DNA from: Planctomycetota bacterium
Lineage (GTDB): Bacteria > Planctomycetota > Planctomycetia > Planctomycetales > Planctomycetaceae
Assembly (NCBI GenBank): GCA_030836185.1
Contig: JAURQH010000009.1
Location: 1-46,520 of the forward strand
DNA length: 46,520 bases
Reading direction: 5' to 3'
Part shown: one piece after another, positions 25,676 to 46,520 of the stretch
How the letters are laid out: the number at the start of each line of letters is the position of its first letter
Position numbering within the stretch: position 1 is the first letter of the stretch
Made by a program: the position numbers and the translations under genes
The notes under the pieces: model-generated
The model's input: only the letters and a program-made list of their open reading frames with translations
What the model was told of the DNA's origin: nothing
The model's database searches: none

Positions 25676-28600
25676 TTCTTATATTTTTTGCCGCTGCCAC
25701 AGGGACAGGGATCATTTCGACCAACTTTTGGCCCCGTGTTTTTGATAGGATCCACGGCATCGTTGGGAGCCCCCGGTTCACGTCCCCCAGACTCTTCCCG
25801 GTATTCTTTTTGCGAAGCCTGCTGAGGATCTTCATGCTCGACATTGGTGATTCGCCACAACGAACCGACGAAGTCGGGGCTTTGTCGATCCATGCGGAAG
25901 ATCGCTGCCGACACCTGAGAATCAACACGGTTCCAGACATTTTGGAATGCCTTGCGACCTTCCCGTTTGTACTCGACCTTTGGATCTTTCTGAGCGTATC
26001 CGACGAGTCCGATGCCGGATCGCAGATGATCCATAAAGTACAAGTGCTCTTTCCAAGCGGTATCAATCACTTCGAGAATCAGTGATCGCTCTGCTTGTCT
26101 TAATTCTGGTCGATATTTGGCTTGATAAGCATCGTTCAGATGAATGCGTGTGTAATCTCGGTCAAGCCCTCGCAAGTCTTCGGCAGTTAACTCTGAACCA
26201 AACTCTGAATTCGCCCATTCGGCCAGTTCTTGTCGATGATCTTCACTGAGGAGAGTTGTCTCGGTGAGAAAGACTCGATCAAGTCGTTCATCGAGTGACT
26301 CAATGGCTGTCCCTTTGGCGAAAAAGTCTTCGCTTTGTTTGGTCAGGAGCGATTCCATATCGTTTCGAGAGATGCTGGAATGCTCGGCGGGATCGAACGC
26401 TGCATCAAATCGATTGTTGGCCCAACGAATCAGGCCTTCACGGTCATAACGATCCCCCCCTCCACCATCACTCATAAAGCGATGCATGCCGACAGAAACA
26501 GGGAACTCCGTTTCCTTGGCCTCGTAGATTCGGGTGACTTCTGCACGAATCAGATCGACCGCTTCCTGCTCGTCGGTGATGTCTTCGAATTGCTCAGGAG
26601 TCATCTCGATCGAAAGTTGCTGTTCCAGGAAACCACACAACGATCCCCGTCCAAAATCATCCCGCAGGAATGTGTCGAGATCAGAAAGGTCGAGCCGTTC
26701 GACAGCTTCTTGTGCTTTTTCATACAGATACATCTGCATGTCGGCACGCCCGATTTTTTTGAGTTCTTTGTCGTTGGTGTTGAGGTCAAACGACTGGTTG
26801 GCCCATTTTGAAAGTGCCTGCCAACTCCATTCGCGTTCATCTTCGACATCTTCTGGAAGATGTGTGTCGATCTGGTCGTTAATGACTTCTTCGGCATGAA
26901 CTTTGGCCTCTTCGCGAATGAAGATGTCAAGCTGTTCGCGGGTCATGTCACGAACGGCATTGGGGGTGAAGTGCAGTCCCAGTCGGTGTTCGGCCCAAGC
27001 GACAATTGTCTCTCGATGATAGCTTTCGCTGAGGAACTCGGGGACACGTTCCCGAATGAGATTGTCGATCATCTCTTCAATCATGATGCGGCAATCCGCA
27101 CCATCAAGAATCCGTTGCCGGAATGAATAGACCTGTTTGCGCTGCTCGTCCATCACTTCATCGTATTCGAGCAGATTTTTACGAATGTCGAAGTGATACT
27201 CTTCGCGTTTTTTCTGGGCTCCCTCGATGCGACGCGTGAGCATGCGGCTTTCGATGGGTTCTCCGTCTTCGAGACCGAGCCGAGTCATCATGGCCTGCAT
27301 CATCTCGCCGCCAAACATCCGAAGCAAAGGATCATCCATTGCCAGGAAAAATCGACTCGATCCGCTGTCTCCTTGTCGACCGGCACGACCGCGAAGCTGT
27401 AGGTCGATCCGTCGTGAGTCGTGTCGTTCTGTACCAATGACGTGTAGGCCGCCATTTTCTTCGACCTTACGACCTTCGACCTTCATTCCCATGCTTTCGG
27501 CGATGCTATCCGTTTTGTCGTCCCAAACTTCCTTGGGGATTTCGAGGCGTGAGGCGTAGGTTTCTGTCAGTTCCTGCAATGCGAGAAACTCGGGATTACC
27601 ACCCAAAATAATGTCAGTACCACGTCCGGCCATGTTGGTGGCAATGGTGACGGCTGCGGTGCGCCCCGCCTGAGAAATGATTTCCGCTTCTCGTTCGTGG
27701 TGCTTGGCATTCAGGACATTGTGTTGAATCCCGAACTTCGTCAGTTTGTTGCCGATCAGTTCCGATTTTTCAATCGATGTTGTTCCTACGAGAATCGGTC
27801 GGCCCGTTTCGTGAACTTCGCGAATCTCACCGACGACGGCATCCCATTTCTCTTTTTCGGTTCGATAAATTTTGTCGGGATGGTTGATGCGTTTCATCAC
27901 ACGGTTGGTCGGCACTGCGACGACATCGAGGCCATAGATTTTCCAGAACTCTCCCGCTTCCGTCATCGCGGTTCCGGTCATTCCGCCCAGCTTCTTGTAT
28001 AGCTTGAAGAAGTTTTGCAGTGTGATCGTCGCCAGAGTTTGCGACTCGGCCTTGATTTTGAGTCCTTCTTTCGCCTGTACCGCTTGATGCAAACCGTCGC
28101 TCCACTGTCGTCCTTCCATCTTACGACCGGTGAATTCATCGACGATGACAACTTCCCCCTTTTCGACGACGTAGGTCACATCACGTTTGTAGAGATGGTG
28201 AGCTTTGAGTGAGTTGTCAATCAGGTGGGGCCATTCCATGTTGCCCGCGGTATAGAAGCTTTCCACGCCGGCAATTTCTTCAGCGCGACGGATGCCATCT
28301 TCGGTCAGGTGGCAAGAGTGTTCTTTTTCTTTGACTTCGAAGTCTTCTCCCGCCTTCAACTGACGGGCAATGGAATCGGCACGTGGATATTTGGTGAGAT
28401 CGTCTTCTGCGGGACCAGATATGATCAGCGGCGTACGTGCTTCGTCGATGAGAATGTTGTCGATTTCGTCGATTAAGGCGAAGTCCAACGGTCCTTGAAC
28501 CTGGACATCTTTTCGCGGTTTCATGTTGTCACGCAGGTAATCGAAACCAAATTCATTGTTGGTTCCGTATGTGATATCAGAGGCATAAGCCTTTTGGCGT

Positions 28601-29548: not shown

Positions 29549-30199
29549 ATGACTGCGGACGACTCCAAATATCAATCGGGTGACCCCCCGGACCCTGTTG
29601 GGCTTCCTGCAGAGACGATTATTAGTCCAGACACGCATCGACCTGAGCGTATTCCTCCCGGTCAATCCCGTACTCGAAAATGGCCTGTTTTGGACGCCCA
29701 TGGAACCCCCAATGTTCCGCTGGATCGCTGGAGGCTTGAACTGGATGGTTTGGTCGATCACCCCTTAAGTTTCACTTGGGACGAATATCAAGAGCTTCTG
29801 CGAGTGAAAGTTTTCGCTGATTTTCATTGCGTGACCTCTTGGTCGCGGCTGGGAAATGTCTGGGAAGGCGTTTCGGTTCATCATTTGGTCGAGAGAGCCG
29901 GCGTTCTGCCCGAAGCCAAATATGTGATTGCGACCGGGTTCGATTATGGCTGGACCACCAATATGCCCTTGGAAGATTTCCTGCAGGAAGACGTATTAGT
30001 GGCCGATCTTCATGATGGCGAGCCAATTGATGCCGACCATGGCGGTCCAGCCCGTTTAATGGTCCCGCAACTTTATGCGTGGAAGAGTGCCAAGTGGCTT
30101 CGTAAATTGACCTTCGTCGCCGAGGATCAATCAGGATACTGGGAACAGATGGGCTATCATAATCATGGTGACCCTTGGACCGAAGAACGATACAGTTAG
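29549..30199 (+). CDS. Sulfite oxidase-like molybdopterin oxidoreductase, cytoplasmic form
   Basis: The 216-residue protein is the molybdopterin-binding domain of the sulfite oxidase superfamily, without dimerisation domain. Typical features are WRLELDGLVDHPLSFTWDEY, the cysteine that would ligate molybdenum in FHCVTSWSRLGNVWEG, FDYGWTTNMPLEDFLQEDV, and GGPARLMVPQLYAWKSAKW. No Tat or Sec signal is seen: the N-terminus is polar, so unlike MsrP (YedY) it is probably cytoplasmic. The substrate is unknown. Between this gene and the next are two arrays of degenerate heptamers. Confidence 0.82.
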   Translation: MTADDSKYQSGDPPDPVGLPAETIISPDTHRPERIPPGQSRTRKWPVLDAHGTPNVPLDRWRLELDGLVDHPLSFTWDEYQELLRVKVFADFHCVTSWSRLGNVWEGVSVHHLVERAGVLPEAKYVIATGFDYGWTTNMPLEDFLQEDVLVADLHDGEPIDADHGGPARLMVPQLYAWKSAKWLRKLTFVAEDQSGYWEQMGYHNHGDPWTEERYS

Positions 30200-30208
30200 T
30201 CATAAGTT

Positions 30209-30236
30209 TTCAGTGTTCAGATTTCAGTATTCAGAA
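30209..30236. repeat. Four degenerate heptamers (TTCAGnn)
   Basis: Units are TTCAGTG, TTCAGAT, TTCAGTA and TTCAGAA in perfect 7-base register, starting 10 bases after the oxidoreductase stop. Confidence 0.75.
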
Positions 30237-30315
30237 TCGATCTTTTTTTGGTATCGCTCACATGAATTTTCACCTCATGAGATTCATTCATCATCGTTGA
30301 AAGGAACTGAGCTAG

Positions 30316-30343
30316 TTTCTCATTTCGAGTTTCTGGTTTCTCA
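30316..30343. repeat. Four degenerate heptamers (TTTCtnn)
   Basis: Units are TTTCTCA, TTTCGAG, TTTCTGG and TTTCTCA in 7-base register, ending 5 bases before the start codon of the DUF971 gene and occupying the place of a ribosome binding site. Confidence 0.75.
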
Positions 30344-30348
30344 CTGAC

Positions 30349-30660
30349 ATGGCTGATGCACCGCAAAATATTCGTGTTCTCTCAGAAGATCGTACCCTCG
30401 AACTGACGTGGACACCTGACCGTGTTGTCAAATTGCCGTTCCATTTTGTTCGTTGCCAGTGTCCTTGTGCGGCCTGCGTTGATGAACACACCGGAGTGCG
30501 TCTCTTGAAACCGGCCACGATCCCGGAAGATATTGCACCGACCGGGATGGGATTTAGCGGCAATTATGCCTTGAAAATCGGTTGGTCGGACGGTCATCAC
30601 ACGGGCTTATTCACCTGGGATTTTCTCGACGAACTTTCCAATCAGCAGGAGGCGTTATGA
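30349..30660 (+). CDS. DUF971 domain protein
   Basis: A 103-residue single-domain protein. DUF971 marks are LELTWTPDRVVKLPFHFVR, the cysteine cluster CQCPCAACVDEHTG, and YALKIGWSDGHHTGLFTWDFL. The same fold forms the N-terminal domain of gamma-butyrobetaine hydroxylase and is fused to Mrp-type ATPases in some proteins; cysteine-rich members probably bind metal. No Shine-Dalgarno sequence is visible: a heptamer array fills that position. The stop overlaps the CYTH gene start by 4 bp (ATGA), indicating coupling. Function is unknown. Confidence 0.82.
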   Translation: MADAPQNIRVLSEDRTLELTWTPDRVVKLPFHFVRCQCPCAACVDEHTGVRLLKPATIPEDIAPTGMGFSGNYALKIGWSDGHHTGLFTWDFLDELSNQQEAL

Positions 30661-31220
30661 GTTACGAAGTCGAGATGAAGTTTCCCTTGAACGATACGAA
30701 GCACTTTGTGCCGTTATTGCGGGGAGTGGGTGCTGAGGAGTCCGAAACGCAGACGCACATCGACCGATATTTCAATCATCCTGCAAAAGACTTTGCGGAG
30801 TCGGACGAAGCGCTGCGATTGCGATCCATTGGTGATAAGAACGTAATTACATACAAAGGCCCCAAAATTGATTTGGTCACCAAGACTCGGCAGGAAATCG
30901 AAGTCGACTTCGAACGTGGGGCGGAAGGTGTGATTCAGCTGGCACAAGTGTTGACGCTTCTCGGATTTAGAGAATCCCTCACCGTTCATAAGACTCGTAG
31001 GGTCTTTCATCTCGACTGGCATGAGCGGGAAGTCGAAGTGCTTCTCGATAACGTCGAAGGTTTGGGGGAGTACGCCGAGATTGAGACCATCGCGCTGGAA
31101 GGCGATCAGGATGTCGCCAAAGAATGCGTACTCTCGTTGGCAGAAAAACTGGGATTGGAAGAGTCCGAACGACGTAGTTATTTGCGCATTTTGATTGAGA
31201 AAAGCGGTTCATCCAGTTGA
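30657..31220 (+). CDS. CYTH-domain protein (class IV adenylate cyclase/thiamine triphosphatase-like)
   Basis: The ATG at 30657 overlaps the DUF971 stop; the frame runs 25 codons further upstream but only as overlap with the DUF971 gene. The 187-residue protein has the CYTH hallmarks: the N-terminal YEVEMKFPL (E-x-E-x-K type), DRYFNHP, EALRLRSIGDKNVITYKGP, then KTRQEIEVDF and a late YAEIETIA. These charged residues line the triphosphate tunnel. CYTH enzymes act on ATP, thiamine triphosphate or polyphosphate, and many are inorganic triphosphatases; the specific activity cannot be assigned here. Confidence 0.85.
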   Translation: MSYEVEMKFPLNDTKHFVPLLRGVGAEESETQTHIDRYFNHPAKDFAESDEALRLRSIGDKNVITYKGPKIDLVTKTRQEIEVDFERGAEGVIQLAQVLTLLGFRESLTVHKTRRVFHLDWHEREVEVLLDNVEGLGEYAEIETIALEGDQDVAKECVLSLAEKLGLEESERRSYLRILIEKSGSSS

Positions 31221-45329: not shown

Positions 45330-45543
45330 CATCTCGCAAAGAATGACCACACGAGTGGGAGAACACATCCCGACTTATTCAGTATTCAGTCTTGGAGCCG
45401 CCGACGGAAGTCGGCAGGAGATCGCGAAGTTGACAACAGGTTTGGTTAGGATGCACCAACTCCAGTTGTGAAGACGACGAGAAACTCCAAAAAATATGAA
45501 AAGATATTAGGAATGATCGTGATGCTTGTGGCTGAAAATGAAC

Positions 45544-46350: not shown

Positions 46351-46520
46351 ATGCCCACAAGATCCCGCAACGAGTCAGGACGACTCCACGCAGCGGGATC
46401 CAGGACGGAACCCCAACGACAAGTCAATGACACACAATGGTTTCTGATTTCTGATCTGATGCCCGATCCACCGCCGAATCCACTTGGTGGACGACCGCCC
46501 CACAAAAATCGGGACTGCTT
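46351..46520 (+). CDS. IS5-family transposase, N-terminal part
   Basis: The frame opens at the ATG 46351 and runs off the window (56 codons visible). After about 25 basic, polar residues it reads VNDTQWFLISDLMPDPPPN, then LGGRPPHKNRDC, which matches the N-terminal DUF4096-like domain of IS5/IS4-type transposases (pattern D-x-Q-W ... I/L-x-x-L-x-P ... G-R-P). The catalytic DDE residues are downstream of the window, so intactness cannot be judged. Confidence 0.72.
   Translation, partial: MPTRSRNESGRLHAAGSRTEPQRQVNDTQWFLISDLMPDPPPNPLGGRPPHKNRDC

Follow-up and report, generated by a model that had tools for sequence, protein, structure and literature searches.

How two different heptad arrays came to share one short intergenic gap, and whether they serve either of the genes that flank it, is the question raised by this locus. 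The window (the whole 46,520-base stretch of planctomycete DNA that was analysed) is part of a Planctomycetaceae draft genome of 5,160,223 bases in 107 contigs, which is 98% complete. The arrays are best regarded as short, degenerate simple-sequence repeats with a 7-base unit, a kind of repeat that is already known. The evidence for this reading and for its competitors is set out below.

The gap and its arrays

The gap spans positions 30200–30348 (149 bases) and separates two plus-strand genes, an oxidoreductase gene with a molybdopterin-binding domain (PF00174, positions 29549–30199) upstream and a PF06155 gene (GBBH-like_N, named DUF971 in the initial annotation, positions 30349–30660) downstream. 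Array 1 occupies positions 30209–30236 on the plus strand and comprises four TTCAGNN heptads, in the order TTCAGTG, TTCAGAT, TTCAGTA and TTCAGAA, with 16 of 21 matches at lag 7. Array 2 occupies positions 30316–30343 on the same strand and comprises four TTTCNNN heptads, TTTCTCA, TTTCGAG, TTTCTGG and TTTCTCA, with 14 of 21 lag-7 matches, which is weak when taken alone. The inter-array stretch (30237–30315) coincides in part with a segment, 30263–30330, that is nearly unchanged in a sister genome. The sequence bears out the initial annotation in its description of two arrays of four units in exact 7-base register, the second ending 5 bases short of the DUF971 start; bases 30344–30348 intervene between array 2 and the PF06155 ATG at 30349.

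Each of the exact four-unit patterns, TTCAGNN and TTTCNNN, has a single occurrence in the draft genome, the one in the window, and the three-unit form of the TTCAG pattern likewise retrieves array 1 alone. Elsewhere in the window, the cores of arrays 1 and 2 recur in heptads of two units each, TATTCAG and TTTCTGA, at 45376–45390 and 46441–46455. Close to the contig end, at 332–392, a unit of about 11 bases (CTTGACCGAAT) is imperfectly repeated in tandem (5.4 copies), and a CTTCGAC repeat of period 7 (3.6 copies with indels) lies within the secA coding region at 27459–27484. Within positions 30349–31220, a CYTH-domain gene comes after the PF06155 gene. Of 32 distinct short loci, 18 contain a CYTH relative, those of the source genome and both congeners among them.

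Array periodicity compared with chance

When the window was shuffled 100 times, neither four-unit pattern appeared. A dinucleotide shuffle of the gap, repeated 5000 times, gave a best scan window of at least 16/21, the level of array 1, with P = 0.0022, a value that rises to 0.015 if periods of 5 to 12 are all admitted, and the score pair 16 + 14 was never reached. Both shuffle tests were picked after the arrays had been seen, and the gap shuffles, unlike the period counts described in the next section, retained windows with short-period identity. Array 1 is clearly above chance. Array 2 exceeds chance only weakly as a tandem 7-base repeat.

A chance reading of T-rich DNA might account for array 2 and perhaps also for its pairing with array 1. 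Windows of at least 14/21 at lag 7 number 24 in 191 kb of noncoding DNA, and shuffled sequence gives 6.5. The pairing can be judged from the other gaps. Two of the 883 gaps in the source genome contain two scan windows of at least 14/21, compared with 0.64–0.65 expected (P = 0.13–0.14), which is not significant; the second of them is a 127-base gap in locus L057 with TTTTAGA and ACTGAAA arrays. An N run that entered the list of such gaps was disregarded. Stretches of related genomes yielded three double-window gaps in G003 (P = 0.017), one in G048 (P = 0.69) and three in G001 (P = 0.17). When these are pooled with the source genome, nine are observed compared with 4.0 expected (P = 0.004–0.005), a clustering that argues against chance at the 14/21 cut; at the stricter cut of at least 15/21 the pooled count is three compared with 1.6 (P = 0.21), and one pair at least, that in locus L121 of G001, consists of both arms of one inverted repeat. 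That heptads attract heptads, so that arrays cluster in gaps, is a hint and no more. The uniqueness of the exact TTTC pattern in the genome and its absence from the window shuffles, together with the absence of the 16 + 14 pair from the gap shuffles, also count against chance, although these tests were chosen post hoc. Overall, a chance origin of array 2 is unlikely, if not negligibly so.

Period-7 excess in noncoding DNA

The genome scan sampled 1,476,728 bases (29% of the genome) in 77 stretches, of which 191,139 bases were noncoding and 1.28 Mb coding. Genes were taken from a rough caller, such that the noncoding class and the start positions are approximate. Four-unit windows were counted at lag identity cuts of 66%, 71% and 80%, with expectations from 20 shuffles, after exclusion of windows with at least 60% identity at lag 1, 2 or 3. 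Gaps below 40, 30 or 28 bases, depending on the scan, fall outside the counts. Gaps with N were dropped in the multi-genome scan, and the period scan of the source genome kept one gap with 873 N.

At the 71% cut, 15 noncoding windows of period 7 were found compared with 1.05 expected (the largest of the 20 shuffles gave 3), and at 80% there were seven compared with 0; the 1.28 Mb of coding DNA contained nine windows at 71%. The initial annotation had proposed a scan of other intergenic DNA for 7-base periodicity over shuffled sequence, and such an excess is present. It is accompanied by an excess of period 8, with five windows compared with 0.10 at 71% and two compared with 0 at 80%. At 66%, period 8 (22 compared with 2.5) is about as strong as period 7 (24 compared with 6.5), and period 9 also exceeds expectation (6 compared with 0.6). 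In the noncoding sample at 71%, periods 5 and 6 show no excess (16 compared with 13 and 2 compared with 3.6, respectively), and periods 9 to 12 give 0 or 1 windows. The preference for 7 thus shows only in the better arrays, because period 8 is equally in excess at 66%, and the period is not purely 7.

The arrays do not share one core. Among those of the source genome and its relatives are TTCCTAA, GTGAATT, TGCTTTG, ATTTTGG, TTTTAGA and TTTCCGC. Scans of 10 to 50 kb of noncoding DNA per genome with five shuffles found period-7 windows in G003 (7 compared with 0.2 expected), G048 (4 compared with 0.4) and G001 (8 compared with 0.0), and none at the same cut in the 10 to 50 kb each of G004, G025 and G059. 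For G059, this means 0 windows in 49.7 kb, where about four are expected at the rate of the source genome.

Spacing of core motifs across the family

Among 150 genomes of the family, three TTCAG units at 7-base spacing gave 590 matches in 49 genomes, compared with 43 matches in 29 genomes at spacing 6 and 13 matches in nine genomes at spacing 8. These totals are hand sums in which overlapping units are counted more than once, and 286 of the 590 matches come from two genomes; the load of one core pattern ranges from none to 205 matches per genome. The mirror control, TTCAG read backwards, gave hand sums of 81, 67 and 19 matches at spacings 7, 6 and 8, respectively, 52 of the 81 in two genomes, and this control core is itself a repeat pattern. 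The preference for spacing 7 is strong for TTCAG and weak for the mirror core. Four TTTC units were matched in 57 of the 150 genomes; the corresponding control is high in a few genomes (G058 has 0 matches and 129 control matches). In a phylum-wide draw that includes family members, three TTCAG units were matched in 33 of 199 genomes.

In G032, TTTCAAATTTCAGATTTCAAATTTC and near variants are present on many contigs. Among 26 of the 136 TTTC places in that genome, at least five pairs of inverted TTTC arrays lie 120–244 bases apart, as if the G032 heptads were the arms of a dispersed hairpin.

Changes between sister genomes and between element copies

Two congeners, G059 and G003, both MAGs, were available for comparison, with PF06155 protein identities of 99% and 80%, respectively. 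The G059 gap also measures 149 bases and is identical at 134 positions, with no indel. Array 1 differs at five of its 28 bases, all at TTCAG core positions, and array 2 at two. The initial annotation had suggested comparing unit number between close strains; in G059 the number is unchanged in both arrays, which differ by substitutions only. The core-located differences in array 1 would fit decay in G059 but might also reflect renewal in the source genome. Twelve of the 15 gap differences fall in 30200–30262, whereas the segment 30263–30330, which extends into array 2, has one difference in 68 bases; such conservation is frequent, being equalled by 358 of 2529 overlapping 68-base windows in gaps aligned along the contig. 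G003 has no gap, and the upstream stop overlaps the downstream ATG. Because the gene pair was found together in 3 of 32 distinct loci, those of the three members of the genus, gain of the gap cannot be told from its loss. The locus set counts 34 rows, of which two duplicate G059 and G003; upstream, each locus covers at most about 1.5 kb.

Whole-unit differences are found at other arrays. The TTTTAGA array of L057 is shorter in G059 by exactly one 7-base unit. A dispersed element of the source genome has three copies, L091:10500–10760, L093:11600–11860 and L054:760–1030, with alignable flanks (73–77% identity) and a heptad block in which unit number differs. In that order, TGCTTTG-type units number 2, 6 and 1 in the copies, and GGAATTA-type units 3, 2 and 3, as counted by eye; the GGAATTA-type set of L054 has changed in concert to GGAATCA, GGAGTCA and GGAAGCA. 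Among 141 noncoding indels between the source genome and part of G059, one is of 7 bases and one of 14, neither in an evident array. This comparison, which covers 11.6 kb of noncoding alignment within the first 262 kb of the G059 stretches and has low power, gave no excess of 7-base indels.

A further dispersed repeat of about 57 bases contains AATTGCCAAAGATC and is found at 592–645 of the window, at L093:11813–11869 and at further loci. It occurs at nine near-full-length and two shorter places in the 1.48 Mb of the source genome and at eight places in the G059 stretches; a search of 148 kb from G003 at E 1e-5 found none.

Insertion and regulation as alternative explanations

The 149-base gap could be an inserted or captured element of a dispersed family, with heptad arrays at its ends by coincidence. 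The gap is absent in G003, although that genome contains about ten partial matches to array 1, all of them weak (E 0.04 to 10). Elsewhere, heptads do lie within dispersed or inverted repeats: inside the dispersed element of the source genome, in the inverted TTTC pairs of G032, and in an inverted repeat of G001 (L121:18838–19055), in which outer arms of 20 bases are fully complementary and inner arms of 49 bases (78%) hold the heptads. However, a deletion in G003 explains the difference in the gap equally well. The gap is also single copy in the source genome, the next match being 31 bases at 84% (E 0.03), and positions 30180–30360 contain no inverted repeat of at least 10 bases; neither of the features looked for in a MITE-like element or mobile hairpin, multiple genome copies and terminal inverted repeats, was found for it. 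Insertion is thus quite improbable. The suggestion of the initial annotation that the arrays do not form one mobile family holds for the single-copy gap in the window; against it as a general rule, some heptads lie in a dispersed element.

A regulatory role, in which array 2 would be bound by a protein or would shape translation of the PF06155 gene, is suggested by analogy with what has been proposed for the TAACTGA repeats of another group, the marine Beggiatoaceae, where heptamer repeats lie over the ribosome site according to an excerpt of MacGregor 2015 (PMC4679880). Array 2 and the ATG are 5 bases apart, the interval 3 to 20 bases upstream of this codon contains no 4-base Shine-Dalgarno core, and 30263–30330 is almost invariant in G059. 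The initial annotation, which took array 2 to displace any ribosome binding site, was right that none precedes the DUF971 gene; the absence is nonetheless ordinary, because just 36% of 600 predicted ATG starts in the source genome carry the core (8% in a control stretch) and about 64% are without it. Moreover, G003 keeps the gene pair without any gap, and the exact four-unit pattern occurs once in the genome, so that no regulon is visible. Placement was assessed with 34 arrays from the source genome, G003, G048 and G001; G059, G004 and G025, with 0 windows at that cut, were left out. Fifteen of the arrays lie within 15 bases of a gene edge, compared with 10.0 when positions within those gaps are drawn at random, and in 11 the nearest edge is a stop and in four a start. 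Placement near stop codons is suggestive only. The RNA fold of the gap is ordinary (z −0.25), and Rfam families all stay below their gathering scores. On balance, regulation by array 2 is rather improbable.

Two further ideas were rejected, an RNA element or terminator in the gap and a role of heptads in supplying stop codons. An RNA element is disfavoured by the same fold value and by a best Rfam score of 16.1 bits against a gathering score of 50, and no terminator-like site is present in the gap. One promoter-like site was found at 30344–30372, compared with 0.6 expected. As 7 equals 1 modulo 3, a stop-bearing heptad places stops in all frames, but stops in the arrays are not above those in column-permuted arrays: the 34 arrays have 95 stop frames compared with 85.3 permuted (P = 0.10) and 12 three-frame strands compared with 12.4 (P = 0.65). 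A 12-codon reading frame, seen by eye, starts from an ATG at 30262 in the conserved middle of the gap; the stretch is identical in G059, which is uninformative either way.

Heptameric simple-sequence repeats as the preferred explanation

The arrays appear, with somewhat better than even confidence, to be heptameric simple-sequence repeats, short and degenerate, whose unit number rises and falls through slippage or unequal exchange, which decay by point mutation and which have no function. In intergenic DNA under weak constraint, strand slippage or unequal exchange would duplicate a stretch of 7 bases; the young array would gain and lose whole units for some time and would afterwards erode through point mutation. 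Arrays 1 and 2 are probably in the eroding stage and of no use to either gene. They look old because the gap of the sister genome G059 differs from theirs by substitutions only, and from this we infer their age.

The initial annotation had offered slippage or an unknown copying process as the source of the arrays. The first suggestion fits the noncoding period-7 excess, the varied cores and the whole-unit differences at other arrays. The second is unnecessary, because heptamers are already described as over-represented among bacterial simple repeats, for which polymerase slippage and polymerase contact length are proposed (excerpts of PMC4692102 and PMC4679880). A copying process in planctomycetes is conceivable that would act on whatever sequence a gap contains, a polymerase or a repair step gripping about 7 bases and duplicating any local heptad. 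If true, it would explain unrelated cores at mostly one period and arrays of different cores sharing a gap, as well as the concerted change of units (GGAATTA compared with GGAATCA and GGAGTCA) and the arrays in inverted-repeat arms. However, it is made less likely by the equal excess of period 8 at the loosest cut, and is very unlikely overall.

Simple-sequence repeats of this size have been described in other bacteria, among them the heptanucleotide tandem repeats of Calothrix, known as STRR. These resemble the present arrays in that several heptamers (three) occur per genome, a likeness of description rather than of sequence (excerpt of PMC4692102). The heptameric long repeats of prokaryotes, surveyed by Mrazek 2007 as cited in the excerpts of PMC4692102 and PMC4679880, share the 7-base unit, the intergenic bias, an excess relative to most other unit lengths and the proposal of slippage, whereas the arrays here are short, with about four units, and imperfect. 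The GGGAATC and GGGGA(C/T)T repeats of Xanthomonas and Nostoc, as presented in the excerpt of PMC4692102, are likewise degenerate heptads, often of four units, with a noncoding bias and variable positions. They have one G-rich core, about 185 places per Xanthomonas genome and quadruplex capacity, unlike the T-rich arrays here, whose two exact patterns each occur once in the genome. The TAACTGA repeats of marine Beggiatoaceae also lie just upstream of starts where canonical ribosome sites are rare; the excerpt of PMC4679880 gives them one favoured exact core in 169 sets, in contrast to the many cores found here and the lack of a start preference in 34 arrays (four within 15 bases). Repeats with 4- to 11-base units are normal or weakly over-represented according to an excerpt of PMC4060949. 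No published account of planctomycete heptads was found among titles and abstract openings within a partial coverage of the literature.

As heptameric simple-sequence repeats, the arrays belong to a kind already known, of which this gap offers an ordinary instance in the course of erosion. The preference for a unit of 7 in intergenic repeats has so far been a guess about polymerase contact. In a family with varied heptads and a variable load, the content of repair and polymerase genes could be compared with heptad load.
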